DNA of 64,000 nucleotides from Owenia fusiformis (Eukaryota > Annelida > Polychaeta > Sabellida > Oweniidae). A program made the position numbers and the translations under genes. This document shows, one piece after another, positions 12,942-45,057 of this stretch. The notes under the pieces were generated by a model. That model saw nothing but the letters and a program-made list of their open reading frames with translations, did not search any database and was not told where the DNA came from. The stretch lies in contig CAIIXF020000012.1 of NCBI GenBank assembly GCA_903813345.2, forward strand, positions 18,855,520 to 18,919,519, read 5' to 3'. Within the stretch, counting starts at the first letter, position 1, and the number at the start of each line of letters is the position of its first letter.

Positions 12942-14291
12942 TTACTCATCGCCATCTCCTTCTTCAAAACTGTCAGTTTTCTGTATTTGAGGGATCGCTG
13001 CTTCCCATGCCGCTAAGCAGTTGTCATAATAGTTTATCTGACGGTCTGCCATTTCTATGAACATTTCCTTAAAGTCACGTCGTTTATTCATGTGCCAGCG
13101 ATCCATTTCTGATTTTAAGTCTGCATTTGCACATGTGAGTCTGTCACCCATCAGTTCTACTTGTTTCTCTAGATCTTCCACTTGCTGCTGGAGCTTTATT
13201 TGTTTCTCTTGTTTGACTTCCTCTGGGTTTCGCCCAAGGAAAGCTCCGAGGGAATACGTCTGATCTGAAATCTTGACATGTTCTTTTTCATCTTTCTTGC
13301 GATTTGAATCCTCAATGGTGAGTTGGCATTCCGCCTGAATCGCATCACGGCGTTTTAGGACATCGCGAACTGCATCCACGTATAGGATGTATTCCTTTAG
13401 TGGTTGAGTAAGTTGAAGATCTGTTCCATCTACGACTTCAGTCAAAGCCGTGTTGCATTTTTCAGTTGCAGTAGCAATGCTGGATAAAGCCTGGTTTAAT
13501 TTCTCTTCTGAATTTGACCAAAGTTTAAAAACTGGACCCCATTCATCAAATGAATGAGCAAGATCTGAGGCCTCCTTATAAACACGTTGGGATATCCGTT
13601 CCAGATTACCTAGTTTCTCACCTAGAGTGTTTATATATTCATACATCATAGTGTATTCAGGTGGTCGAGATTTTAACATATAAACGGCGCTAGTAGTATG
13701 TATTGACTCTGATACGCGAGAGAAAATTCCACCTCCTTCTTTTTTGAAAGCTGTGAATTCATAAGGTTTAAGTGTGATGAATCCCTGTATAAACTTGCTG
13801 TACGATAACACAGGATGTTTACTCAGTCGCTGCATAAACTTGTTCAATGCTTTCTCTCGTGTTTTGATGAATTCTGGGCTGAACCGATCAAAACGTTTTA
13901 AACTGTGTTTTTCTGGCAGAGGAGGAATCAAGTATATAGGTGAGGAGCTTTCTAAGCGTTGACGCAGCCAGAGAAAATCATTATAGCGTCTCCTGACAGA
14001 ATATTCTGGGCTATCATACTCGCTCCGTGTTGTTATGGTGCTGACAAGGAATGTGGTATAAGATTCCATATTAGTTACAAGTTTTTCAGGTGAATCAACT
14101 GTTACTTTTAAGTCATCACATTCAAGTTCTGCATCCAGGCTATTCACACTTGAAAGTTTTATATCACTCAGTGTCTTCATAGAACTATTCATTTCATCCT
14201 CAATTGTACTTTTGATGCCATTGGTGTTTTTTACTTCTGGTGCAGTTTCAAACAATGTGTGCTCGTCTGAGTCTTCTAGTGGGGACGCCAT
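12942..14291 (-). CDS. SNX7/SNX30: Sorting nexin, SNX7/SNX30 type (PX-BAR), single coding exon, 449 aa
   Basis: Endosomal membrane-binding protein. Residues about 60-172 form a PX domain with the phosphoinositide-binding RRRYNDF (100-106), the PPLPEK loop (123-128), and FIKTREKALNKFMQRLSKHP, which holds the third basic site. Residues about 190-440 are a BAR domain rich in helices, including YEYINTLGEKLGNLERISQR and a coiled coil with KQVELMGDRL, ending RQINYYDNCLAAWEAAIP as in the SNX4/7/30 branch. These proteins form BAR dimers that help shape recycling endosome tubules and act with SNX4 in autophagy. The ATG at 14291 is chosen. The open frame extends upstream only through a GTG just after an acceptor-like TTCTTTAG, implying a 5' UTR intron. 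The whole coding region is uninterrupted, unlike the multi-exon vertebrate genes. SNX7 and SNX30 cannot be separated here. Confidence 0.95.
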   Translation of the reverse strand: MASPLEDSDEHTLFETAPEVKNTNGIKSTIEDEMNSSMKTLSDIKLSSVNSLDAELECDDLKVTVDSPEKLVTNMESYTTFLVSTITTRSEYDSPEYSVRRRYNDFLWLRQRLESSSPIYLIPPLPEKHSLKRFDRFSPEFIKTREKALNKFMQRLSKHPVLSYSKFIQGFITLKPYEFTAFKKEGGGIFSRVSESIHTTSAVYMLKSRPPEYTMMYEYINTLGEKLGNLERISQRVYKEASDLAHSFDEWGPVFKLWSNSEEKLNQALSSIATATEKCNTALTEVVDGTDLQLTQPLKEYILYVDAVRDVLKRRDAIQAECQLTIEDSNRKKDEKEHVKISDQTYSLGAFLGRNPEEVKQEKQIKLQQQVEDLEKQVELMGDRLTCANADLKSEMDRWHMNKRRDFKEMFIEMADRQINYYDNCLAAWEAAIPQIQKTDSFEEGDGDE

Positions 14292-14305
14292 TTTTAATGA
14301 CACCT

Positions 14306-17661: not shown

Positions 17662-17820
17662 ATGCAAAATTCATATTCGGAGTGGCTTACGAAAACTTAT
17701 GTGAAAGAAATGTCCAACACTCATACCCTTCAAGCGCTATCTTGGCGCAGATTGTACCTCGCCAGAGCCAAACTCAAAGCTGCAAGTAGGACGTCAGCAT
17801 TGTTGTCAGGTTTTGCCATG
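17662..17820 (+). CDS. ORAI: Orai calcium channel, first exon 1a (R91-type pore)
   Basis: Open frame of 53 codons from ATG 17662 (in-frame TAG six codons upstream) to a strong donor GTGAGT at 17821. It encodes a short cytosolic N-terminus, then [20 protein letters not shown] and [11 protein letters not shown]. This matches the human ORAI1 stretch around [27 protein letters not shown] nearly residue for residue, including the basic pore position R91, the hinge G98 and F99. It ends in phase 0 exactly where the shared exon at 29341 resumes with VAMVEAQL, so splicing yields GFAMVAMVE as in vertebrates and a 226-residue channel. The implied intron is 11.5 kb. No other partner exon was found between, so I read this as one of two alternative first exons. 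A truncated tandem duplicate is the alternative. Confidence 0.82.
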
Positions 17821-18132
17821 GTGAGTAAAATTTAAAAAAAAAATTTAGTCTAGATAAGAAACAAAATTTAGGGACGTTATGCCTGCCCTGTCAACCCTCA
17901 CGCATTGTCACGCATTTGCTGGAAAAATAGAAATCATGCATCAATTTAGCTTGTATGATCAAATATCACGCAAATCACGCATTTTGTTGATATTTTTAAA
18001 AATCATTTTTTGTGAAATGCCGACACAGTAAAATACCGAACGGCGAAAAAAAGCGAACACATTCCATTCGGTCTTTATCTACATCTACATCAATAATCCG
18101 CAAAAGGCTTATAAGCCCATTTAAAGCAGATA

Positions 18133-18757
18133 GGGGAAATGGTCCTAATTATCGCACGGTCCTAATTATCGCACGATTGCTCTAAATAGCTAAAACATGC
18201 ACCCGCCATATTTTAAACCAGTGTTACGAGAAACAGTTCAACACCATTACTCCCAATCTTCATGATTTTTTCATATATCTAGAAATATCTCTTCATTTTT
18301 TAAGAATTGTTTACTTCCGTTATTGTCATAAATCCTATTGCGCAAGAAGTGAAATTCATCTGACAAAGTTTGACCCCCCTCCAAATAAAGACAGAAAAGT
18401 AAGTGTATAATGTATATTTCGTTGATATTTTACACTAAAACTGATAGAAAAATGATTATAGCAAATGCATGTATCTGTTTTAAACAGAGAAATGTATATA
18501 GGAACCTTGAAATGACATCTGAAACACAACTGTGCGATAATTAGGATGACTGTGCGATAATTAGGACCACCACACATGCGAGTCTAAGGGGTCTTAAAGT
18601 GCTAGCGTTCGGAGATTGAGAAATGTCAAACACTACTTAAATTTTAGAAGAAAGGTTAATCTTTCGTCTCATTATTCTCAAAGTAAGTTGAAGTTATCAT
18701 ATTTGAAATTGTCAGCAGTTTTCCAGGGTACCTGTGCGGTGATAGGACCATTTCCCC
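18133..18757. mobile_element. MITE inside the LINE 3' UTR (TIR GGGGAAATGGTCCTA, TSD TA)
   Basis: The left end TA-GGGGAAATGGTCCTAATTATC mirrors the right end GATAGGACCATTTCCCC-TA. The motif GTGCGATAATTAGGA recurs as subterminal inverted copies near 18150-18178 and 18530-18567. It separates two parts of the LINE 3' UTR, so it inserted after the LINE. Confidence 0.8.
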
Positions 18758-19011
18758 TATATTGTTTAACAGTGATATAATTTGAATAGAATACAATTTG
18801 AACCTTAACATTTAAAAAATAGATATATGGTTTACAACTCATATTAAAATGTACACTGAAATCATGCAACACTTCTCCACTTAAGGAGGCATCTTCCCCA
18901 AGGTCGATGCTCCCGTTCGTAGAAAATTGGCCATATTCAAAAATCATTTGTATAAACAAAAACAAATTTTTAAGAATGTACCATAGACCTATTGCTAAAA
19001 TACAACCGAGC

Positions 19012-19569
19012 TTAATTGTAAAGCTGCTTGCTGACAGAAGATTTAAAACTGGATAGGCTATCACTGTCTAAAATATCACCGGGTAGAGTGTTCCATTTTA
19101 CGATTGTCCTTGGAAAGTAACTAAACTTGTATGCATCCGTTCTGGCAGCTGGTTGGATGAATTTGGATGGATGGAACTTCCTAGTGTTTGTGTTTATTTG
19201 AGGGCTGAAGTAAGTGGGTATAGTGATGGCTGCTAAGTTGTGAGTTCCTTTGTAGAAGAGGGAAAGTCTAGTAGCCTCCCTATGGGATTGTAGTGATTCC
19301 CACTGCAGGTGTTGGAGAGCTTGGGTGACACAGCCTGGTTGCCTAGAGTGACATTTGGTAACAAATCTGGCGGCTCTCCTTTGTACCTGTTCCAGTATGT
19401 TGATATCTTTCTGGCGGTAAGGATCCCATGCTGCACTAGCATATTCTAGGTTAGGCCGTACTAGTGACTTGTATGCCTGGGCTTTAATGTTCTCTGGGCA
19501 CTGGTGGAGGTTGCGCCAGAGGAAGCCTAGTACCTTGTTAGATTTTGATACTACAGTTTGTTTGTGTGT
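19012..19569 (-). pseudogene. LINE ORF2, C-terminal fragment
   Basis: About 186 codons open on the minus strand to TAA at 19012-19014. It contains NKVLGFLWRNLHQCPENIKA, YKSLVRPNLEYASAAWDPY, LEQVQRRAARFVT and LQWESLQSHREATRLSLFYK, the conserved region after the RT thumb in CR1/L2/jockey-like elements, and ends TIVKWNTLPGDILDSDS...KQLYN. It belongs to the same copy as 20557-20970, split by the 878-bp insertion. Confidence 0.85.
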
Positions 19570-20447
19570 TTTTTTTAATTTTTATATTTCCTTTATTTCA
19601 TAATACATCATACAAACAGATACAGGGCCCACGCCGAAGCATTATTGGCCCTGTTGAAGTAGTTACAATATAAGTTAAAATAGGTCATAATGTAAAAATG
19701 ATAGATATAGAACATATTTATGAACATGAAAATAATCTTGAAAACATGAAGACAGGTCAGAGATATATGTATAAATTAATGAATATTGGACTATTTAACT
19801 TCCTTGACAATAGAGTGTAAAAACTCGGCTGTTAATTCAATAGCCTTTTTATTTGTAATTGTGTCAAGAGAAGGATCTGCAAAAAGTAGAAAGTCTACCC
19901 TGTCCTCCTGTTTTCTATTATTAAAAGAGTTTAAATTAAAGGATGGCAGTCCCCCTAGTTCTCTGTGAAAATTGAGTCTTTGAGTGTTAAAAAGAGGGCA
20001 ATGGAGCAATAGGTGTTTGGTTGATTCAGTAGAGTGACTACATTTACATTTGGCATTTGGAATATTTTTGAAGTTATGTGTAAAAAGATGCTGCCTAAAA
20101 ATGAGATCACATCTCGTTTTATTTAAGACAATTTCTTTATCTCTGGATAGGTTTAATCTTGGGGTTGTGAATTCTTTCTTTTTCCCATTCAAAAATGTTC
20201 TAATTTTATACTTAAATGAGTTGCGTGAGTGTGCTTGTTTCAGTTCATCAGGTAAATTATCCCATAATTTAATACTGGATAAAGCTGTAAACTTTCTAAG
20301 TTTAGCAGATGCTTTGAATGGGATCTTAAAATCATTGCTACGACGAAGTCTTTGGTGGGTTACCTGGTTCTTATACTGTTCAAAAACATTTGAAACATAT
20401 GAAGGCATCTTATAATTATTTACAAAGTCAAACATAAAAACTAGTTT
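19570..20447 (-). mobile_element. Second, 5'-truncated LINE inserted into the first
   Basis: Carries one 214-codon ORF (19791-20435) and a 3' UTR that ends AATAAAGGAAATATAAAAAT followed by an A-run next to the host LINE. Same orientation as the host. The A-rich junctions on both sides hide an exact target-site duplication. This copy looks younger, because its ORF is intact over the retained part. Confidence 0.8.
19791..20435 (-). pseudogene. C-terminal part of a non-LTR retrotransposon polyprotein (214 aa retained)
   Basis: Contains LSSIKLWDNLPDELKQ and SFKYKIRTFLNGKKK, the usual end of RT-type C-terminal domains (compare VIWNSLPDHLKN), then a terminal zinc-knuckle-like CKCSHSTESTKHLLLHCPLF. 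The RT core is missing because of 5' truncation. The first ATG is internal to the original ORF. Confidence 0.8.
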
Positions 20448-20556
20448 TTTTCAGATTTTAGTTCTTCACCTAACATAGTGTACTTGTGTGTGATGGGTGA
20501 TTTACGTCTCTGAATACTCAGTACATATAGCATTTTGAGGGATGGAATTTCATTTG

Positions 20557-20970
20557 CTATGTATTTGCCCAGGAGACCAGTTTGTCAAGGTTATCCTGGA
20601 GTGTCAGTGCATCCTGTTGGTTCTCGACAGACATGAAGAGGAGGCTGTCATCTGCAAATAGTTTGAGGCTTGTTGTTGTTGATAAGTCGCTGCCCATGTC
20701 ATTGATATAGACAAGGAAGCAGAGCGGTCCGAGCACAGTTCCTTGAGGGACACCCGATTTCACTGGTGTTCTTGTACTAGATTCTCCATCCAGTACTACC
20801 TGTTGGGACCTTCCAACGAGCCAAGATCTGAGCCAGCTCAAGTTGTTTCCGCGAATTCCGTAGTGATTAAACTTAAGGAGCAGGCACTCGTGTGCGACTG
20901 TATCAAATGCTTTAGAGAAGTCCAGTACTAATAATTCTGTTTGTTTGTTGTTATCAAGAGCTCGCGATTG
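20557..20970 (-). pseudogene. LINE reverse transcriptase core (truncated, nonsense codon)
   Basis: Minus-strand reading gives LLVLDFSKAFDTVAHECLLL, then LSWLRSWLVGRSQQVVLDGE, VKSGVPQGTVLGPLCFLVYI, and LKLFADDSLLF with the catalytic FADD box, ending WANT followed by TAG (20557-20559) and QMKFHPSKC. The stop most likely replaces a tryptophan codon, since WANTW is usual in the family. Sequence before LLVLDFS is lost. Confidence 0.88.
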
Positions 20971-21084
20971 CGGCTTATATCACGCATTTGGTACAAAATA
21001 TGTGTATATATCACGCATTTGTTTCGAAAATATTTACACCATGTTATATTGCATGTTATAATGACCAAAGTTCCTGCCAAGGGT

Positions 21085-22920
21085 GAAGCAGGGGCATAGA
21101 CCTGGAAACATGGTGTAAAAAAGATTGAGTCGAATACCAAATAAAAAGATCAAGTGACAGTCAAATACCAAGCAAAGAGATCTCTACTTGTGGGCCCACT
21201 TGTTATTTGACTCGATCTTTTTTATACATTCCCTATGCCCAGGGCAGAGGTGGCGTTAACGCAATTTTTTACGTTTTTTACTCACATTTTTGCAACTCTG
21301 ACGCAAATATTCATTGTCTACCGAGTCTTTCTGACGCACGTTTGTTTCACATGCAAAATCCCCGCTTGGTACTTGGTTAAATTGATCCCTATACGTGAAA
21401 ATACGTGATTGATCAAATTTATAATTTTGCTAATTCCGGAAATCTAACATTTCGTTCAGCGCAATCGAGCCTCCTTCCTACCGATCATTTTCTCATTTCG
21501 GTATTTCATATAGGTATTTTTAAAGCCCTGTGATTCAGATTCAATGATAAACTTGAAAACATTGATCGATCCCTCGATTTGTTTATCTCGTGAAGCACGT
21601 TGCTAGGGGGGCGTATCAAAAATGCAATAAAACGAACATAACATTGAACAATAATTTATTAATTTCATACTCCCTTCTAAGGATTTTAGTGATCGTATAT
21701 TTATCTAAATTTCCGCATAAAATCTTCTCTTGAATGTTCACACGCTAGATTTACGAACCTTTAGTTTCCTTCGCAAGTTCGCAAAATTCCTTCGCTAAGT
21801 TAGCAAGTTTCCTTGAGCCGTCCCCTTCATCAGCATGCGCAGATGTAATGCGCAGTAGGTTTATCAATGGTGCTCACAGTGACCGATCTATCCAGAGGGG
21901 GAGAAACACCAGGGTTCAAAGATGACATACGCTTATAATGTAAATCTGTATTGAGATGACACGGTCGCTGATTGGTCAAAAGTTGACAAACAAATGACGT
22001 CATCAATGGCGGTTTCAAAATTTTCGAAATACGCTTCGAATAATATTATGTTCATTTCTGGCGTGTTAACCAATACCATAGCTTCTCATTTCACATCAAG
22101 ATAAAGAAAGGTGTACGGAATATGCCTATATCAATTATAACATCCCATCGAAGTGTAGTATTTGATAACTAGCTGATGAAGATTCGAACGAACGAAGGTG
22201 GTAAGCAAGAGAGGTAATTATGTCTGTCATCTTGAAACTCTGGGGCTTTCCCTCCTCTTGATCTATCGTAAGTTTTCACCAAGTATGTTCAATTAACTCC
22301 CTCAAGTTAAGATCTTCGATTCACTAGATCTGAAGCTGATCCTATGAAGATAGATAATGGGCACATGAAAATCCAGTCGATCGCACATTAAGGGGGGTAA
22401 TGATGATAAATTAGGTATGAAAACAAATCTACTTTCGGTTTCATTTGATCAGCTATAATTACAAGATTCTACCGTATTCAATTTAAATGATGTCCAGTAT
22501 TGTGGTCGGACTTATATTGCCGTTTTAGACTTTGGAATGATTGCAAAAATGTTGAATTTCAACATGAAACGCTTTGACCCCAATTTGTGTAACTCCACAC
22601 AGGGAGGAACTCCTCTCCCACTCCATTCACACCCATGACCCGCTGGACCAGATAATCAGATGATTAATAGTGACATTTTTCTTGCAATTGCCTAATTAAT
22701 TAATTGTTAGTTGTTAATGTGCTATAAGAGTACAATAAAAGGTATGCACAAAATCAAAAAATAGATTTTGTATGTGGTTTCTACATTTTGTATGCATTTT
22801 TACTCAAGAAAAACACTTTTATAGCTTTGACTCAACTTTTTTTCTTGTGACTCACTTTTTTGAAACTACCTGAGTCATGATGACTCACAAAAATATATGC
22901 CTACCGCCACCGCTGCAGGG
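21085..22920. repeat. Decayed inverted-repeat region
   Basis: Two loose inverted pairs. GCATAGACCTGGAAACATGG with AAAAAAGATTGAGTCGAA near 21090-21130 is mirrored near 21213-21240. GGCAGAGGTGGCGTTAACGC at 21243 is mirrored by the TACCGCCACCGCTGCAGG block ending near 22919, with GAGTC-rich stretches inside both ends. Likely one or two old DNA elements. No ORF. Confidence 0.4.
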
Positions 22921-23207
22921 GAATGACTAACAAACAAGCATAGTGTAATACGTCAGATAATGAAATTGAAAAAGTATGGTAAATTCAATGTCCCGTGTGA
23001 GAATCGAACCTAGGAGCATTGGATCCAAAGACTGATGCTCTAGAGTCCATTTCACTGTTTAACTGCGTCAGTAAAAGCTAAAAAATGAGAAATCAAAATA
23101 TCATTTTGCAATGATATATGGAAAAATATATCCCTATTGTACATGAATGACATTTGTATATCTTGGCTTGCTTCTAGTTTGGCTTATAAAGTGTGTGGCC
23201 TCTTATA

Positions 23208-24144
23208 CAGTAAAACCTGTCCGATGGAATACCTCTCTGTAGGGAAAACCTATGAACAAGGAATGCTTTTCAAAAGAACCAAATATTTTTCTATTGACTT
23301 ACATGTTAACGGACCCTCTCTGTAGGGAAAACCTATGAACAGGGAACAAGGAACACTATTTTGGGGCAAATTATGAAAATTCACCTGTGAACAAGGAATA
23401 TGGAATATTGGTGACACTGTATATTCCATTATTTTTCAGAGGTGTGAAAGTCTTAAGCCAATATCTGATTCTAAAAAGCTTGGATTATTTAATATGATGA
23501 GATTAAGATAAGCCAATTGTTTACAAGATGTAGCATCCCACCCACTGTAAATTACCCTGATATATTTTAAAACTAATACAAATCTGTTACTTATTATCAT
23601 GACACTAATTTTTCCGTTCAACAAACATAAATTAATTACATCAAATCAGTTGTGATAATCTACATAGGGACTGACACAATTGTTTTCTGAAGATTACACC
23701 TAGATAAGTACATGTGTCATGTTGAGCCAAATCTTTTACTGATCCAAACTTCTAGATTATCAATGATATAAAATGGGGTTGATGAAACTTGAAATCAGTT
23801 CTTAGCAACATATCTGTACACATCATTTCAATAATTACATCAACTAGACATCACCAGACACCAGCATCAGTAGCTAAAATCAACAAAGAGAGAATGCTCC
23901 TTTCCCTCAGCCAATGGAGGGAGATTGGAGACCTTCATACATCTTGCAAGATGTTACAACAAGGTCTAGCAACCAAGTATGGAGTCGGCATTGGTACAAT
24001 CAATCAATGCCCATATATTTACAAATATGCTTATTCGGCAAGTTTGAGTTTGCTGAAAGTGCAGCCCCTCTCTATAGGGAAAACCTCTGAACAAGGAAAC
24101 TTTCCTCCAGTCCCAAGAGCATTCCCTGTTCGCAGGTTTTACTG
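23208..24144. mobile_element. Pogo/Tigger-like element (TIR CAGTAAAACCTG, TSD TA)
   Basis: Ends TA-CAGTAAAACCTG and CAGGTTTTACTG-TA, the terminus type of pogo/Tigger elements. Subterminal GGGAAAACCTATGAACAAGG copies occur at 23240, 23325 and 24077. The related MITE at 55802-56187 is uninterrupted at the matching site, which fixes the boundaries. The interior keeps only a fragment of a transposase N-terminus. Confidence 0.85.
23870..24030 (+). pseudogene. Remnant of a pogo/Tigger transposase N-terminal HTH
   Basis: The frame reads KINKERMLLSLSQWREIGDL, then LQQGLATKYGVGIGTINQ, resembling the CENP-B/pogo-type helix-turn-helix (LSLSQK... LATKYGVGIGTIN). It is followed by unrelated residues running into the element end. 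The catalytic domain is absent. Confidence 0.6.
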
Positions 24145-24789
24145 TATTTGGATGCTTCTCTGCCATGTTATTTTCAATAAGATTAACATGGCTGAAATTG
24201 GCTTATTGCACAAAAAACTAAAAAATCTGAACAAATGTCATTCATGTACATTATGAATATACTTTTCCATATATTATTGCACAATGGTCTCCCAATTTCT
24301 TATTTTTGCCTTTCTACTGACGCAATGAAGCAGTGAAATGGACTCTACTAACTGAACTATTAAGGTTTAGACTGCTGGGCGGTAGTAGCAACTTGCTATC
24401 CAGGGTCGTTACACAGTGTACAATGTCCCCCCTTTTTTGAAAGGACCAGGCCCTTGTGGTCAGCCATGCTTTCTTTAGTTGTAGTGATTTACCACACACA
24501 GGGATGCAGAGGTAAAATGTGCCGCGTAAATCACCAAATCCAGACAGCTACCAAATTAATTAGAGCACCAGTAATGTGATGTCGATATCAAGTTACCAAT
24601 TTTCCATTTTTAAATCAGATATTTTCTTGCTAAAGATGAGCAATTCAAAAACAAAGATCACATATAGTGTCATTGATAAAATTATATATTTGGAACATGA
24701 AATTCAGTTTAGTTTATTCATGAAAGTGCATCTTTATATAATATAAGTATTCTAGGACAATTTTAAGATTATTTTGAAGGAGTTCTTTT

Positions 24790-25602
24790 TACGGTCTGTT
24801 AGTGGTGGTAGGTCAAGGCTGCCAATATATGTGTTAACTCTAGTAATGTCATCTAACTTATGGTTAGTGGTGGTAGGTCAATGCTGCCAATGTATGTGTT
24901 AACTCTATAAATGTCATCTAACTTATGGTAAGTGGTGGTAGGTCTATGCTGCCAATGTATGTGTTAACTCTATTAATGTCATCTAACTTATGGTTAGTGG
25001 TGGTAGGTCAAGGCTGCCAATGTATTTGTTAACTCTATTAATGTCATCTAACTTATGGTTAGTGGTGGTGGGTCAAGGCTGCCAATGTATGAGTTAACTC
25101 TATTAATGTCATCTAACTTATGGTTAGTGGTGGTAGGTCAAGGCTGCCAATGTATTTGTTAACTCTATTAATGTCATCTAACTTATGGTTAGTGGTGGTA
25201 GGTCAAGGCTGCCAATGTATGAGTTAACTCTATTAATGTCATCTAACTTATGGTTAGTGGTGGTGGGTCAATGCTGCCAATGTATGTGTTAACTCTATTA
25301 ATGTCATCTAACTTATGGTTAGTGGTGGTAGGTCAAGGCTGCTAATGTATGTGTTAACTCTACTAAAGTCATCTAACTTATGGTTAGTGGTGGCGGGTCA
25401 ATGCTGCCAATGTATGTGTTAACACTAGTAATGTCATCTAACTTATGGTTAGTGGTGGTGGGTCAATGCTGCCAATGTATGTGTTAACTCTAGTAATGTC
25501 ATCTAACTTATGGTTAGTGGTGGTAGGTCAAGGCTGCCAATGTATTTGTTAACTCTATTAATGTCATCTAACTTATGGTTAGTGGTGGTAGGTCATGACA
25601 TA
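24790..25602 (+). repeat. 65-bp minisatellite, about 12.5 units
   Basis: ATCTAACTTATGGTTAGTGG recurs exactly every 65 bp at 24851, 24916, 24981, 25046 and onward to 25566. Units are highly alike, differing mainly at AAGGCTGCC/ATGCTGCC and GTGTTAACTC/GAGTTAACTC, with an alternating pattern that hints at higher-order duplication. It lies in the Orai intron between the two first exons. Confidence 0.95.
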
Positions 25603-25696
25603 TTAGTCACTTAGGTAGAGCAGTTCTTTCCATTGTCGAGTTGAAGAACTGGTATCTTTATCCTGGCTAGAACCATAGACAATTCTAGCCAGCACC

Positions 25697-25800
25697 AGCC
25701 TTTTATCGAGTTGTTAAACTCTAGTAATGTTATCCAACTTATAGTTAGTGGTGGTGGGTCAATGCTGCCAATGTATGTGTTAACTCTAATAATGTCACCT
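25697..25800 (+). repeat. Detached 1.5 units of the 65-bp minisatellite
   Basis: GTTAGTGGTGGTGGGTCAAT and the rest of the unit reappear after about 95 bp of unrelated sequence, showing that the array was interrupted after it formed. Confidence 0.85.
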
Positions 25801-26786
25801 GTGTTTGATATTTAGCACACACTTTTTTGAAATATAAGGGTTATTTTGGCAGATGTTCAACATTTCTATTTACATTTAGATTCAAAGCGGTTTACTTGTT
25901 AATAACATATATCACATTTAATACATAGATTTAAGTTAGTAAAGCTTTTAAGAATACAACAAGGCAATGTTATTTGTACATACAGCCTTGTTGAGGAGGA
26001 CATTTATGCATTTCACAATATGAAATACGATATTGAAACAAGAAGTAACTGAATGAAATAAATAATATCCTTGGTTTCCGAGCCTATAGTTATATTACAA
26101 TATATAGAATATGTAGAGCTCTATTTTAAGTTGTGATATCAGACTGTTAAAGAGGGTATGAGACATTTGTGATAAAACTGAAGCAAAGTACTATAGTAAA
26201 TGTGAATCAGTTAGGGAATATAAAACAGGAGGACTATTTCCAGAAAAGTGCAGGTAGTTTGGAAATAAGTAACCTAAGGATGGGAGAAATATAAAGAACT
26301 CAGAGGTTTGGACTTGCATAGTGTCAAATAGCCCAATGAACAGTAAATGTATACTTAAATGTCACAAAACTATCAAACTCTGCTCTGTTGGAACATCTAC
26401 TAAGATGAGTGTTAAGGATTTTAATCGGTGGAATTAGTGTGTTTATAGGTTCTCAAGACTCCATAACTAGACAAAACTCTGGTTGTAAAATTAATGTCGT
26501 AAAATACCCTGCAGCCAAAACATTTTTAATTGATATAGATAACATAAATGGGGCTAAATTGTACAGTACTATTGAACTGGATGACTCGGTCTCATTGAAA
26601 GGGAAGCCTTAAATATGAATTGAATACATGTAGTTTAACACATGTTACCTGAATTTGAAGATGTGTTGTACGGAAATGAGTCAAAAGGAATAAACAAATC
26701 CAAAGAAAACATCCCTGGAAGGACTTAAACGTAAGACATCATTCTGAACTTGAAATTGAAAATTGAAGTTCAAGTCTTATTAATTC
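25801..26786. other. Orai intron sequence upstream of exon 1b; possible promoter region
   Basis: No repeats or supported ORFs. A TATAAAA at 26219-26225 lies 560 bp before the exon 1b ATG and could mark an internal promoter. This is a weak suggestion. Confidence 0.3.
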
Positions 26787-27020
26787 ATGAGTACATATTC
26801 AAAGTTAACATCTACAGCTACAGCTATGGAGTATCAATCAGAGCTTTATTATTTTGAGCGAAGAGGCTCGTTATCGCAAGGATCACCTGTTGGAAGTTTA
26901 AGTAATCTACGAGGACTCCAAAGCGAGGAATATAAATTCAAATGGCGTCGTTTATTTTTGGCCAAAAATAAATTAAAACATGCAAGTGGGACTTCAGCAC
27001 TGTTTGCAGGGTTTGCTACG
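26787..27020 (+). CDS. ORAI: Orai calcium channel, alternative first exon 1b (G91-type pore)
   Basis: Open frame of 78 codons from ATG 26787 to the donor GTATGA at 27021, phase 0. After an N-terminus rich in Ser, Tyr and Gly (SLSQGSPVGSLSN) it reads FKWRRLFLAKNKLKHAS, then GTSALFAGFAT, the equivalent of human ORAI1 residues about 78-101. Relative to exon 1a and human ORAI1 it has glycine for R91, F for L96, A for S97 and T for M101, while K85, K87, G98 and F99 are kept. Splicing to 29341 gives [12 protein letters not shown] and a 251-residue channel. The frame is intact and pore-helix spacing is exact, so a decayed copy seems unlikely. Loss of the basic R91 equivalent would alter the pore's basic inner section. 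Expression is unproven. Confidence 0.82.
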
Positions 27021-27067
27021 GTATGATATAAATGATAGTTGCATATCAACTGGTTTGCTTTGGTATA

Positions 27068-27415
27068 CAGGGTGTCTAATAAATAAGATGAATGATACTG
27101 TAACTTAATGTTGCCCAAGCTCGATGAAATTTTGGGAAGTTGTAACACAACCTTTTTACCTGTAAATTTCAAGTGTTTCCCATTTGCTATTGGCCAGTTA
27201 TGGTTGCTATAGCAACAGAAACAACAAAAAGGTGGGCACTTAATTGTAGTTCCAGACATCATATATTTTCCAAGATAATAAATTTGAAATGCAAAATTTG
27301 CAAAGTTTTTACCTTTACAGAATAAAGGTAAAACGTTTTGTGTTACAACCTACCCAAATTTGGTGCAACATTAAGAAAGTTACAGGATCTTTCATCTTAT
27401 TAATTGGACACCCTG
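27068..27415. mobile_element. MITE in the Orai intron (TIR CAGGGTGTC, TSD TA)
   Basis: Ends TA-CAGGGTGTCTAATAAATAAG and TTATTAATTGGACACCCTG-TA. The arms stay complementary for about 80 bp (ACTTAATGTTGC / GCAACATTAAGAAAGT, GTTGTAACACAA / TTGTGTTACAAC). The terminus resembles mariner/Tc1-type elements. A detached right end (28861-28891) sits beside the repeat copy at 28236. Confidence 0.85.
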
Positions 27416-27522
27416 TACATGGAAGTTGCATATACACATGGTAGTTGCATATATTCATAAACATGGTAGTTGCATATATACATGGTAGTCGCATAAATTA
27501 CATGGTAGTTGCATAATATACA
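27416..27522 (+). repeat. Short minisatellite ACATGGTAGTTGCATATAT
   Basis: Five imperfect units of 17-27 bp follow the MITE directly. Confidence 0.7.
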
Positions 27523-28085
27523 GCCGGGCTTTACTTCAGTGTGGCAATATTTTTTAAAGCAGATATGAAATCTGATATTGTTGACCTAAAGGAATCAATA
27601 GAATTTTTGATAAATGTATTTGGACATGTTTTCTCATCAGTATTGTGAAAATTATTTCACTCTAACGATCGTCATCGCTGCTTGATAGGCAATATTCGAA
27701 TAGGTTGTGACATTATTGGCCCCCATGTGATCCCTCACTGGTCTGCACATGGCTTGTTTTTGTCCATTAAATCATGATAGTTTTATACGTTATTTATGAC
27801 CATAAACACTTATCTAACATTTCTTTTATAATGGCAAGAACTCTACGTTGGGCTTACAATGAAGAAAAACACATTTTTGTAGTTGCAAGTTGAGAAAACC
27901 TGTTTCAGTTGTCCTTTAATACTTGTATGACATCATGACATACAATAATGCATAAAACCTTACCCACTATTTTACCATTTCAGAATTTTGAAATGTTTAG
28001 TTTGAAAACTTTGGCTTGACTTAAAATGTGGCAGGATTTTTATATGATCATTAATTGATCAATAAAATGTCAAATGAGCAGAATA
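27523..28085. other. Orai intron, no feature seen
   Basis: AT-rich intronic sequence without recognisable ORF or repeat. Confidence 0.5.
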
Positions 28086-29041
28086 AATTTGATCAGTTAC
28101 AAATGTTTTAATATTCACACTTTGACAAACAGTGTTGTATTTATGATTTTTCAAAAGAGACATCATGATAATGTTTTTAAAGGATTTTACTTATTATTCT
28201 GCCTTTAACTTTGAACCATTATCCCAATAATGTACATCAGATTTTCCTTCAAGAAAATATGATATTGGCCTCGGAAAATATCATATTGACACTCGGGCTG
28301 TCACCCACGGTCAATATGATATTTTCCTTGGCCATTATCATATTTTCCCTCAGAATAAAATTCATATTCCATCCCTCCCATTAAACAAACTCTATATACA
28401 TGTAAGGCAAACAAGAACTTTTGAAAATATGAATGCTCTTCATTGTGTGAATTACCATTATTTATTCTCCATAACCCAACTGCAATATATTCACAAGTAA
28501 AGTTACATTAGGCTAGTGTCTGTAATTCTGAACATAAGTGTTTGTAACTCACAATAAGCTGGAAATTACTATCAATAGACTTTGATGTAAAACAGTCATC
28601 TCTCATAATATCAAGCCGTGGAAAAATTGCTTGCCCATAACAATTACAAATTGAATATTACTATCGGTTGGTATGCGTAATCGTAATATCATCCTTCTAA
28701 TCCCAATATCATCCTTTTAATCCCAATATCATTTTGATATCCTGATCCAAAATATGTCATTATCATATACCTTTCTCTAACCATGGTAAAGTGCATGCTA
28801 TAATAGCAATTCACACAAAGCTAGGCAAGGTGTGTCAGATTCCACTTCCAGTCAATCCGATCTTTCATCTTATTAATTGGACACCCTGTAAATTTGATAA
28901 GTTAGAAATGTTTTAATATTCACACTTTGACAAACAGTGTTGTATTTATGATTTTTCGAAAGAGACATCATGATAATGTTTTTATTAAAGGATTTTACTT
29001 ATTATTCTGCCTTTAACTTTGAACCATTATCCCAATAATGG
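28086..29041 (+). repeat. 146-150 bp direct repeats flanking the second copy of the dispersed repeat
   Basis: 28086-28231 and 28892-29041 are almost identical (TTTTAATATTCACACTTTGA through CCATTATCCCAATAATG, with small differences such as an ATTA insertion). Between them lie 28236-28858, near-identical to 9712-10345, and a 30-bp piece of the 27068-27415 MITE right end. This looks like a duplication or template-switch event during repair, not a simple transposition. Confidence 0.8.
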
Positions 29042-29340
29042 TACCATAATGATATGTAACATTGCTCAATCAATACGTTTATTAGGTTGTGTAAGAGGCT
29101 CATAGGACTATAAATATATTTAGAGCCAGTAGCTGATCTTAAACTACATAAAATGTTTTAAATTCATTATAATCCACAACTTGCCTCATCATGAGATTTA
29201 GTTCAAATCTTGTTTTTAAAATGATAAACTTCTATCTTTTTAGTATACTATTAAGAATATTGTTTTATGCATGCCATAACTTTCCATAAGAGGAAAACCC
29301 TAATATCCCAAAAGATGAATGAAACCATTTCTATTTCTAG

Positions 29341-29862
29341 GTTGCTATGGTAGAAGCACAATTAGATGACAATATCCCCATAGGACTTTTGGTGACATTC
29401 AGCGTCTGTACAACTCTCCTCGTTGCCGTCCATCTATTGGCTTTAATGATAAGCACGTGCATTCTCCCGAACATTGAAGCGGTCAGCAACGTCCATAATG
29501 TGACAGCCGTCAATGAGTCACCACATGATAGATTACAGATATATATTGAATTAGCGTGGATTTTTTCAACTGGTATTGGAATATTACTTTTTCTCATCCA
29601 GATGGGTGTGTTGGCCTGGGTGCGATTTTATAAATTTAGCAATCATGAGGCATCGATTGCCTCCACAGCGATTATAGTCCCAGCTATAATCATATTTATC
29701 ATTTTTGCAATTCATTTTTACCGTCAGCTGATTGCACATAAGTATGAAAGGTCACACAAAGGCCTTGAAGAGCTGGAATCTATGGCTAATGAGCTGGATG
29801 GGAATGGATTAGCCAGCAATCCAAGAGATCCATTATCACAAGGAAATATAGAAACTGTATGA
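29341..29862 (+). CDS. ORAI: Orai calcium channel, shared exon 2 (TM1 outer half to C-terminus)
   Basis: Pore-forming subunit of store-operated (CRAC) calcium entry in the plasma membrane, gated by ER STIM. The exon starts after CTATTTCTAG with [10 protein letters not shown], carrying the selectivity-filter glutamate (human E106). TM2 is [21 protein letters not shown] (keeps H134), then [18 protein letters not shown] and [16 protein letters not shown] for TM3. TM4 is [18 protein letters not shown] (keeps P245). The C-terminal helix is [15 protein letters not shown], the region that binds STIM in the family. The TM3-TM4 loop is far shorter than in human ORAI1. At the human E190 position in TM3 the codon reads Gln ([10 protein letters not shown]). 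It contributes 173 residues. Both exon 1a (17662) and 1b (26787) join it in phase 0. Confidence 0.95.
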
Positions 29863-37450: not shown

Positions 37451-38074
37451 AAATTTAATTTTTTTTGAAAATGTGATTTTTAGTTCGGGGAGATTCCCCA
37501 TAGACCCCATGTTATAAAATCACAAAAAGTGAAATTGCATTTTTTGAAGTCTTGGTATCTTCAGAAAAGAAGCTTTGTTTCAAAGTCTGTTGATGGTGAA
37601 AATTACAGACTATTACGAAATTTCAGAATTTAGGGTATTTGAGAGACAACTCCCGTTAAAGATTTAGTATAACTTAAGAATAATCAATTTGGTGTAACAA
37701 TCATAACTCAAGAGACAATTCGAGGGTTGTCCCAGAAGAATGCACTATTTACTCTAACTTTATCAATACTTGATATTTTTGCATGGAAGTTTCATTGAAT
37801 CTTTGAAGATATATTGATTATTCTACAAAGTTTCATTTTGGTTGATAATACTATGTTGGTGTTATAATAAAATCAAGTTTTGGTAGGGTTTGACAGGTTT
37901 TTGTCATGTCAAAAAATTGAAAATATGAAATAATTAATCAACAAATACCATTTTCTGTAGCTATAATCAGTATGCTAAAGAATATACTACGTTTAATTAA
38001 AACAAATGTTTATGAAATAGCGTGTAATGGTGAAAATGGCCATGGTACACTGGTAACTGGTTTATTTGTTGCAG

Positions 38075-38727
38075 ATAAATACGTTGAGGACTGTAATTCT
38101 GACCCATCCTTTACTGGCGTAAGAAACATAAAAACAAAAGAGGGCCGAATATTCAGCGCCTATTGCGACCAGGGCTGGATGTATATTTTCAAACGATTCG
38201 ACGGCACAGAAGACTTCTATCGTACATGGGCTGAATATCAACATGGCTTTGGATATGCAGAAAAAGAACATTTTATCGGACTTGATAACCTCGCAAGTGT
38301 ATTGACACAGGGGACCTATAAAGTTCGGGTCGACCTCTCAATGTGGCCAGGTCCATCAAGTACAGCAAAGTTCGCTGAATATTCAAGCTTTTACATCAGT
38401 AGAACTGACAAATATCGTCTGACCATTGGAGGCTTTAGAGGGACTATGGAAGACAGCCTTACATACCATAATGGTCAACGGTTCTCTACATATGACGAAG
38501 ATAATGACGCAGATGCAACTTCCAATTGTGCTGTCGGTGCCAATGGCGCTTGGTGGTATAAAGCTTGCTATTCATCTAATCTTCTTAGCGGCTATGCGAG
38601 AGGACCCGTTTGTCCACAAGCTCACAAATGCCTCACATGGAATCTCTGGGGATCTACCATCGGTACCCCAAACAATTATTACTACTCATTCAAAGAGGCA
38701 TCTATGAAGATCTACCGCACTATTTAG
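38075..38727 (+). CDS. Fibrinogen-domain lectin A, exon 2 (fibrinogen C-terminal domain)
   Basis: After TTATTTGTTGCAG the exon encodes a full fibrinogen-related domain of 217 residues: VEDCNSDPS, FSAYCDQGWMYIFKRFDGTE and DFYRTWAEYQHGFGYAEKE, then DSLTYHNGQRFSTYDEDND with the calcium-site acidic cluster, NCAVGANGAWWYKACYSSNL with the conserved disulphide pair, and a final YYYSFKEASMKIYRTI. The complete 267-residue protein is secreted and has no collagen or immunoglobulin region. Such proteins (ficolins, tachylectins, FREPs) bind acetylated sugars and act in innate immunity or matrix. The usual His after the second pocket Cys is Tyr here (ACYSSN). Two extra cysteines (GPVCPQAHKC) are shared with gene B. 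In-frame sequence upstream of 38075 is intron. Confidence 0.93.
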
Positions 38728-41171: not shown

Positions 41172-41875
41172 AATAAGATACTTCCCGTATAACCTGCATA
41201 ATTCACGCCGCTTACACTGGGTGACTAATTTTTAAAGCCTTGTTGGTATTTCAAACTTCAGGAAAGAAGCTTTGTCACGGTAACAGCCTGAGGCTGGGGT
41301 ATACAATCATTAATAAAAAATCAGTATTATTCTTATTCAATGTAAGTAATATAGTAAAAGAGCTCTCTATTTATATACACCACGCATTACCAACTCAGTA
41401 CACTATGGGACTTTTTAAACATTTTAACGTATTCCTGGGCCTCGGGTAACAGCCTGTTGATGAAAATTGCAGACTATTGCACAATTAAAAAAAGGGTACT
41501 TTAGAACCAGTCCCGATCAAGATATTTATAAGTAGAAATAGTTTGATACATTTGGGAGGGGCGGCATCAAAATATCGCAATGTCTTAGGAACTGAATGTT
41601 TTAGGGTTCTGGTAAACGCACATTTTAGTTTCTTATCCGACATTTTCCAACACTTCAATATTATGTAAATATGTCGCTACCTACCTCATTCATATACTTA
41701 CAATAGAACATAAAAACAGATTATAAATTATGATTGATACAAAATTTATGATGGATATTGTATACAGTATAGCAAGGAAATAAAGGTGAGAAGACCAATG
41801 AATGTGTCTTTAAATTAACTCCACGACAATATTTTACAAAATCTCCAGTGGAAACTTAAACTGGTTTACTTGCAG

Positions 41876-42531
41876 ATAAATACGTCGAGGACTGTAATTC
41901 TGACCCATCCTTCACTGGTGTAAGAAACATCAAGACAAAAGAGGGACGAATATTCACTGCCTATTGCGACCAGGGCTGGATGTATATTTTCAAACGATTT
42001 GACGGCACGGAAGACTTCTATCGTACATGGACTGAATACCAACATGGCTTTGGCTATGCAGAAAAGGAACATTTTATCGGACTTGATAACCTCGCAAGTG
42101 TATTGACACAGGGGAACTATAAAGTTCGGATTGAGCTTGCAATGTGGCCGGGTCCAACGAGTGAAGCAAAGTTCGCTGAATATTCAATCTTCAATATCGA
42201 TAGATCTGACAAATATCGTCTAATCATTGGAGGTTATCGTGGAAGTATGAATGACAGTATGACACAGCATAGCAATGGCCAACAGTTCTCTACATATGAC
42301 AATGATAATGACTTACATGGAACCGAAAATTGTGCTGTAATCTTTAAAGGTGCTTGGTGGTATAAGAACTGTCGTCTTGCTAATCTATTTAGCATCTACG
42401 CAAAAGGACCAGTTTGTCCTGAACGTGCTGCTTGTGTGTCGTGGTATCACTGGGGATCTGATATTGGTCATCCAAGCAATGATTATTACTCATTCAAAGA
42501 GGCATCTATGAAGCTCTATCGTACTATTTGA
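41876..42531 (+). CDS. Fibrinogen-domain lectin B, exon 2 (fibrinogen C-terminal domain)
   Basis: After TTTACTTGCAG the exon encodes DKYVEDCNSDPS and a complete fibrinogen-related domain ending EASMKLYRTI (268-residue protein with exon 1). It is closely similar to gene A over the first 90 residues (CDQGWMYIFKRFDGTEDFYR, GLDNLASVLTQG) but more divergent toward the ligand-pocket half: QQFSTYDNDNDLHGTENCAV, FKGAWWYKNCRLANLFSIYA. The usual pocket His after Cys is Arg here, Tyr in gene A. The calcium cluster DNDND is kept, as are the extra cysteines (GPVCPERAAC). The pattern suggests recent tandem duplication with divergence of ligand specificity, or gene conversion of the 5' half. Secreted lectin role is by family. 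Confidence 0.93.
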
Positions 42532-44200: not shown

Positions 44201-45057
44201 AAACCTAGTTAAGTTTAAGTAAGCTGAAATGTAATAAAGATGATTCTAATATGAAGTTAACAAGTTCATCATCAATATCTAATGGGATAACAGCGATTTT
44301 GGATAAAAGCACGAACTCTTCTAGGTATGCTTTCAAAGAGTCTCCCGGTACACCACTGCCCAGGGATATTAACCCATGTTCTTTGAACTGCAATTTCCAG
44401 CTCGCGGAGATTGTTGATTGGGAGGTTGTGTATCTGATGATTAACATAATACCACATATTTTCGATAAGTGATTGGTCTGCGGAATATGGTGGCCATCTC
44501 ATTTTGTTGACGCTGCTTTGAAAGAACCACTCTTCCATCTGATTCGCAGTATGAACAGGAGCGTTGTCCTGTTGAAAGACGTACATGTAGCACTGCTCCC
44601 TGTCATCGAATATCAGTTCAATGGATGCTAGAAGGTCATATTGCAAGATATCCTTATATACCTCTCCCATTATGACTCCAGGGACCGTGACTAGCTCCCC
44701 AAAACCATCATAACCGACGCACTCGAAAACATGAGACCACCACGCCTTACAGTTCGTCTCATGCTGAGTCACTTTGGGTTGTATTTCTCAGCGTTTGTGC
44801 GCCACTTAACCGTCCTGCCATCATTTTCTCCAACATTGTATCTAGTCTCGTCCGAAAAGATTACCAATTAGTATTAACATCCAAAAGCCGGATAACATTT
44901 TCGCATTCCAATCGTCATTGTCGTATGAGGGGAGAAGTAATAGGCTTCTGCTTGGCTATACGACCATACAGATCTCTGTCATGTAACTCGAACTAATAAA
45001 AACATTTTATTGAGCATATAAAACTTTAAAACAAAACCAGCAGTGAAGGCAATAGTG

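Follow-up and report, generated by a model that had tools for sequence, protein, structure and literature searches.

The polychaete annelid Owenia fusiformis has an Orai gene in which two homologous first exons, 1a and 1b, precede a single exon 2, and each first exon encodes its own version of the inner half of the pore helix (transmembrane helix 1, TM1). The gene lies in a stretch of 64,000 nucleotides, hereafter the window (GenBank assembly GCA_903813345.2, contig CAIIXF020000012.1, positions 18,855,520 to 18,919,519 of the forward strand); all coordinates below count from its first nucleotide. On balance, I lean towards the reading that these are two alternative first exons, isoform a being a working subunit of the calcium release-activated calcium (CRAC) channel and isoform b a subunit that binds STIM, is impaired in gating and dampens the channels it shares with isoform a. 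The exon anatomy was described in an earlier note made from the sequence alone, and the coordinates, reading frames and phase 0 ends given there agree with what is read from the sequence.

Two first exons and one exon 2

The Orai locus has the following features.

17662..17820, + strand: exon 1a, 53 codons for a canonical Orai N-terminus and the inner TM1 half; phase 0 end, donor ATG/GTGAGT
26787..27020, + strand: exon 1b, 78 codons (counted from its first ATG) for a divergent Orai N-terminus and the inner TM1 half
26826..26828, + strand: codon 14 of exon 1b, an in-frame ATG and putative second start; G at both -3 and +4
29341..29862, + strand: exon 2, shared; encodes the outer TM1 half (including V102 and E106), TM2 to TM4 and the C-terminal tail, and ends in a TGA stop
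17821..29340, + strand: putative intron of isoform a; 11,520 bases, enclosing exon 1b and a minus-strand reverse-transcriptase fragment
27021..29340, + strand: putative intron of isoform b; 2,320 bases

Exon 1b ends in the residues GTSALFAGFAT, also in phase 0, with the donor ACG/GTATGA. The acceptor of exon 2 is TTTCTATTTCTAG/GTTGCT, and its translation opens with VAMVEAQLD and runs for 173 amino acids to the TGA that ends at 29862. Since exons 1a and 1b are both in phase 0, either one can join exon 2 in frame. The junction lies within the pore helix, between residues 101 and 102 in human numbering. Thus, the locus has the layout of alternative first exons: two homologous exons on the same strand and in the same phase, upstream of one exon. 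The donor of exon 1a matches the consensus at 8/9 positions, a level reached by 0.7% of the GT sites in the window.

The first ATG of exon 1b (codon 1, 26787) has T at -3. Given the G at -3 and +4 of the second ATG, alternative translation starts at codons 1 and 14 are conceivable. AG sites are present upstream of or inside the first exons (4 for 1a and 16 for 1b in the stretches scanned), so either exon could be an internal exon that follows an unseen 5′ exon.

Both joined forms resemble Orai

The Pfam profile Orai-1 (PF07856, curated cut-off 25 bits) matched each joined form once, exons 1a and 2 with 228.2 bits and exons 1b and 2 with 213.8 bits. Exon 2 alone scored 173.1 bits and exon 1a alone 37.6 bits, while exon 1b alone, at 23.8 bits, fell slightly below the cut-off. 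Aligned along the Orai structure 4hkr, which is wild-type Drosophila Orai (PMC12893689), the joined forms scored 248.6 bits (1a) and 229.7 bits (1b). In these alignments V102, E106 and the pair G98/F99 are present in both forms, and by eye exon 2 contributes V102, E106, H134 and F187. Residue numbers follow human ORAI1. Both joined products are predicted to be full Orai proteins. As for the partner protein, the STIM SOAR profile had two matches above its cut-off and a third slightly below it at one locus (C2:35.06 Mb), and one further sub-threshold match on contig C10.

A separate observation concerns TM3, where exon 2 encodes Q at a position at which Drosophila Orai has E. I take this position, aligned to E190 of human ORAI1, to be indeed E190, and Orai3 E165 to be the counterpart of E190. 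According to passages of a study of Orai3, E165Q gives a permeation resembling that of the state activated by 2-aminoethoxydiphenyl borate (PMC8347056). Given the TM3 Q and this effect, the native channel may be unusual in its selectivity.

Copy number in the assembly

The assembly comprises 498 Mb in 525 contigs. In keeping with an annelid, the profile of the haemoglobin-linker domain Eryth_link_C, typical of that phylum, had three matches above its cut-off, one of them with an internal stop; a search of the assembly for COX1 gave no match. A search with the exon 2 protein scored 3 candidates, of which one matched at E<=0.001. At E<=10, exon 1a has only two matches, itself and exon 1b (E 0.001), and exon 1b likewise matches only itself and exon 1a (E 0.005). 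The Orai-1 profile has four matches at E<=10; three of them are these exons, and the fourth is a stretch on a different contig that stays below the profile's cut-off. These results are strong evidence for a single exon 2 and for Orai-type first exons at two places only; they fall short of absolute, because the searches score the best candidates and the assembly may miss some stretches. The locus appears to be the only Orai gene of this animal. Thus, the assembly and Pfam searches bear out the proposal of one Orai gene in which two homologous first exons provide alternative versions of the inner pore-helix half ahead of one exon 2. A second exon 2 elsewhere, which the earlier note had named as the finding that would assign exon 1a to another gene, was not found by the searches of the assembly with the exon 2 protein and the Orai-1 profile.

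Within the window, exons 1a and 1b match each other with E 5.5e-9 (53% identity over 43 columns). Their other matches there have E 1.9 or worse for 1a (self excluded) and E 0.12 or worse for 1b. A tblastn search of the window with exon 2 at E<=10 gave 10 matches, itself and nine weak ones, and none of these fell in the interval that separates the first exons (17821-26786).

The sub-threshold stretch on another contig (C9, L006:436-588) was considered as a second exon 2 and rejected. It matches positions 93-143 of the Orai-1 profile with 18.4 bits (E 0.31 genome-wide), and its 51-residue piece alone scores 19.8 bits against the 25-bit cut-off. It is probably no exon 2 partner of exon 1a, since the match lies in the middle of the profile and no VAMVE-type pore segment is visible in its frame. 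The stretch might encode a remote relative of Orai, for instance TMEM221/Jiraiya, for which a link to Orai has been described (PMC7016017). A search of a viral contig collection with exon 2 gave seven pattern matches and no relative.

Divergence of exon 1b from exon 1a

Over a stretch of 28 residues of TM1, exons 1a and 1b share 18 residues without a gap. Exon 1a is identical to Drosophila Orai at 23/28 positions and exon 1b at 15/28. Exon 1b differs from 1a at ten sites, by the changes R83K, A88H, R91G, L96F, S97A, and M101T and by further ones at 74, 75, 80, and 84; W76, K85, K87, L95, G98, and F99 are kept. Thus, isoform a would have M101 and R91 and isoform b T101 and G91, residues whose need is established for human and fly Orai only. 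The pore-lining residues encoded by exon 1 are R83, K87, R91, L95, and F99. In this set, exon 1b has changed R91 to G and R83 to K and has kept K87, L95, and F99. The idea that first-exon choice swaps the pore chemistry calls for refinement, and M101T is the change for which experiments show the clearest effect. Exon 1a is canonical; its sequence differs by one residue from the string quoted in the earlier note.

Exon 1a departs from Drosophila Orai at five sites, and at three of them (78, 82, and 89) exon 1b has the residue of exon 1a. This shared state suggests that exon 1 was duplicated within this lineage and that exon 1b then changed fast; it is possible that the agreement at the three sites is a chance convergence.

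Is exon 1b under constraint? By the NG86 method, the nonsynonymous divergence (dN) of the 28 codons is 0.32 and the synonymous divergence (dS) is 1.34, with a dN/dS of about 0.24; the LWL85 method gave 0.27 and 1.40. The dS value approaches saturation and draws on a small number of sites, four of the eight shared fourfold sites being different. Extending the comparison without gaps to 36, 39, or 40 codons left the number of identical residues at 18. In simulations of a neutral copy with the 29 nucleotide differences observed (100,000 runs each), an open frame together with at least 18 of 28 identical residues was obtained in 0.015% of runs with uniform bases and in 0.005% with AT-rich bases. 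When drift was confined to the 1b branch, the match was reached in 0 of 20,000 runs both at 1.0 and at 0.67 substitutions per site, and in 0.16% of runs at 0.5. The frame of exon 1b is open over 78 codons with the phase 0 donor in place. From these patterns, selection on exon 1b is likely, with moderate support that stops short of proof, and exon 1b may still be a recently dead exon.

A possible damper subunit and its alternatives

What would the two isoforms do? In passages of a mutational study of human ORAI1, M101 is described as the latch for the F99 gate, and replacing it with G, A, S, T, C, V, L, or I abolished gating by STIM1 with similar membrane fluorescence; except for some polar or charged replacements (Q, N, D, K, and E), co-localisation and fluorescence resonance energy transfer with a STIM1 fragment were unaltered in the M101 mutants (PMC7679135). 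In the mechanism that I somewhat favour, a transcript of the gene would begin at exon 1a or at exon 1b, in two start regions, and either first exon would be spliced to the same exon 2 at the phase 0 junction between residues 101 and 102. Isoform a would be a normal subunit of the store-operated calcium channel. Isoform b would have the selectivity filter, TM2-4, and the STIM-binding tail in common with isoform a and would be without the M101 latch and the basic ring of R91. It would reach the membrane, bind STIM via the common tail, and enter hexamers with isoform a. Since isoform b has no latch favouring the open gate, it would open poorly and mixed channels would conduct less, and the ratio of b to a would set the calcium entry. 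The complete scheme would be a one-gene rheostat for store-operated calcium entry, built on a duplicated half pore helix, in which the choice of the first exon yields both a functional CRAC subunit and, for the same hexamer, a damper that lacks latch and R91; I put it forward tentatively and with more doubt than confidence.

Several observations weigh against a damper. Both isoforms are predictions from genomic sequence. The donors had been called good, which is true of 1a; that of 1b is mediocre, with 6/9 consensus positions, a level reached by 18% of the GT sites in the window. As a promoter signal, the CpG ratio was unremarkable at both exons (0.91 for 1a, as high in 26% of regional windows, and 0.51 for 1b, as high in 69%) and was dropped. 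Exon 1b retains 15 of the 23 residues common to 1a and Drosophila Orai and has thus changed faster than 1a. The 28 codons were picked after the alignment was seen, the bootstrap (1,000 replicates) placed dN/dS between 0 and 0.62 and dS between 0.54 and saturation, and drift of the 1b branch at 0.3 substitutions per site gave the match in 7.5% of runs. Finally, the effect of M101T is known from a single substitution in human ORAI1, and L96F, S97A, and R91G, which lie in the same helix, could offset it; M101F, which like L96F brings an aromatic residue into that cluster, is a gain-of-function mutation there (PMC7679135).

The last points lead to the main rival, in which both first exons are used and isoform b is a competent subunit with shifted gating, selectivity, or inactivation, M101T being compensated by L96F, S97A, and R91G. 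I consider it rather unlikely, although a part of the mutational evidence, including the activity of M101F, speaks for it. According to passages of the respective studies, L96 and M101 belong to the same hydrophobic cluster, S97C is a gain-of-function mutation, and S97C, M, L, I, and V give nonselective currents with STIM1 (PMC7825772), while the pore was wider in a simulated R91G channel (PMC12893689). On the other hand, hydrophobicity alone does not substitute for methionine, as M101L and M101I do not gate (PMC7679135), and R91G alone shows no constitutive activity, hydrophilic residues at position 91 preserving the function (PMC12893689). The passages of the cited studies contain no effects of S97A or L96F. 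The second rival, to which I give a little less weight, holds that exon 1 was duplicated in the past and that the copy, exon 1b, is now a relic or seldom used, being in decay or no longer transcribed. The fast change of exon 1b relative to Drosophila Orai, its mediocre donor, the upper end of the dN/dS interval, the loss of the M101 latch, the frequency of the match under slight drift, and the purely genomic record of exon 1b would all fit a relic. Against it stand the open frame of 78 codons with its phase 0 donor, the gapless stretch of 28 codons, and the rarity of the match under drift at 0.5 or more substitutions per site. Lastly, exon 1a or 1b might be part of a further Orai gene in tandem, with its own exon 2 absent from the assembly or collapsed in it. 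Exon 1b could have arisen by a tandem duplication, and this assembly may miss stretches. However, the window is free of N, the interval between the first exons yielded no remnant of exon 2, and the assembly has one match to exon 2; an artefact or a lost neighbour is thus very improbable.

Other features of the window

Besides the Orai exons, the window has the following features; scans of the window for tRNA genes and Rfam families gave no matches.

12945-14303, - strand: sorting-nexin-like frame of 453 uninterrupted codons with PX and Vps5 domains
20557-20979, - strand: reverse-transcriptase fragment in the interval between exons 1a and 1b
37921-38727 and 41860-42531, + strand: two tandem fibrinogen C-terminal (FReD-like) open frames of near-alike sequence
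44272-44787, - strand: DDE_3 transposase fragment, downstream of the Orai exons

The lack of introns in the sorting-nexin-like frame suggests a retrocopy or a single-exon gene.

Comparison with known systems

Among the matches listed in a search of the open-access literature, no Orai gene with alternative first exons that alter TM1 was described. Another invertebrate Orai gene with two first exons may exist in annotation databases. The described N-terminal variants of Orai, Orai1-alpha/beta and Orai2L/S, have longer or shorter N-termini, and TM1 is identical in Orai1-alpha and Orai1-beta, given the 63-residue difference between them. As in O. fusiformis, mammalian Orai1-alpha and Orai1-beta are two N-termini of one Orai gene; unlike here, they arise from alternative translation starts on one mRNA, 63 N-terminal residues apart (PMC13404903, PMC9735889). 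In O. fusiformis, in contrast, the exon encoding half of TM1 is exchanged. Murine Orai2L and Orai2S are also N-terminal variants of one gene, and Orai2S is described as potentially dominant negative, which recalls the proposed isoform b, while the two differ by 14 N-terminal residues and the pore helix is not involved (PMC9261457).

CRAC gating has so far been taken apart with point mutants of the human and fly channels. If the damper reading is true, an animal with an intact isoform and a natural second one, alike in all else and carrying the known loss-of-opening change M101T along with R91G, L96F, and S97A, would offer a natural experiment on what the latch and the basic ring do. A second subunit that attenuates the CRAC current from within the hexamer, as proposed for isoform b, is known from the ORAI1/ORAI2 heteromers of mouse T cells (PMC5355949). 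Those subunits come from separate genes, unlike here. If the reading is true, the intron that interrupts the pore helix after residue 101 would have opened a route to the diversity of Orai subunits without gene duplication. In another channel family, alternative start exons of Drosophila TrpA1 give isoforms with different gating, and the part exchanged there is cytosolic.

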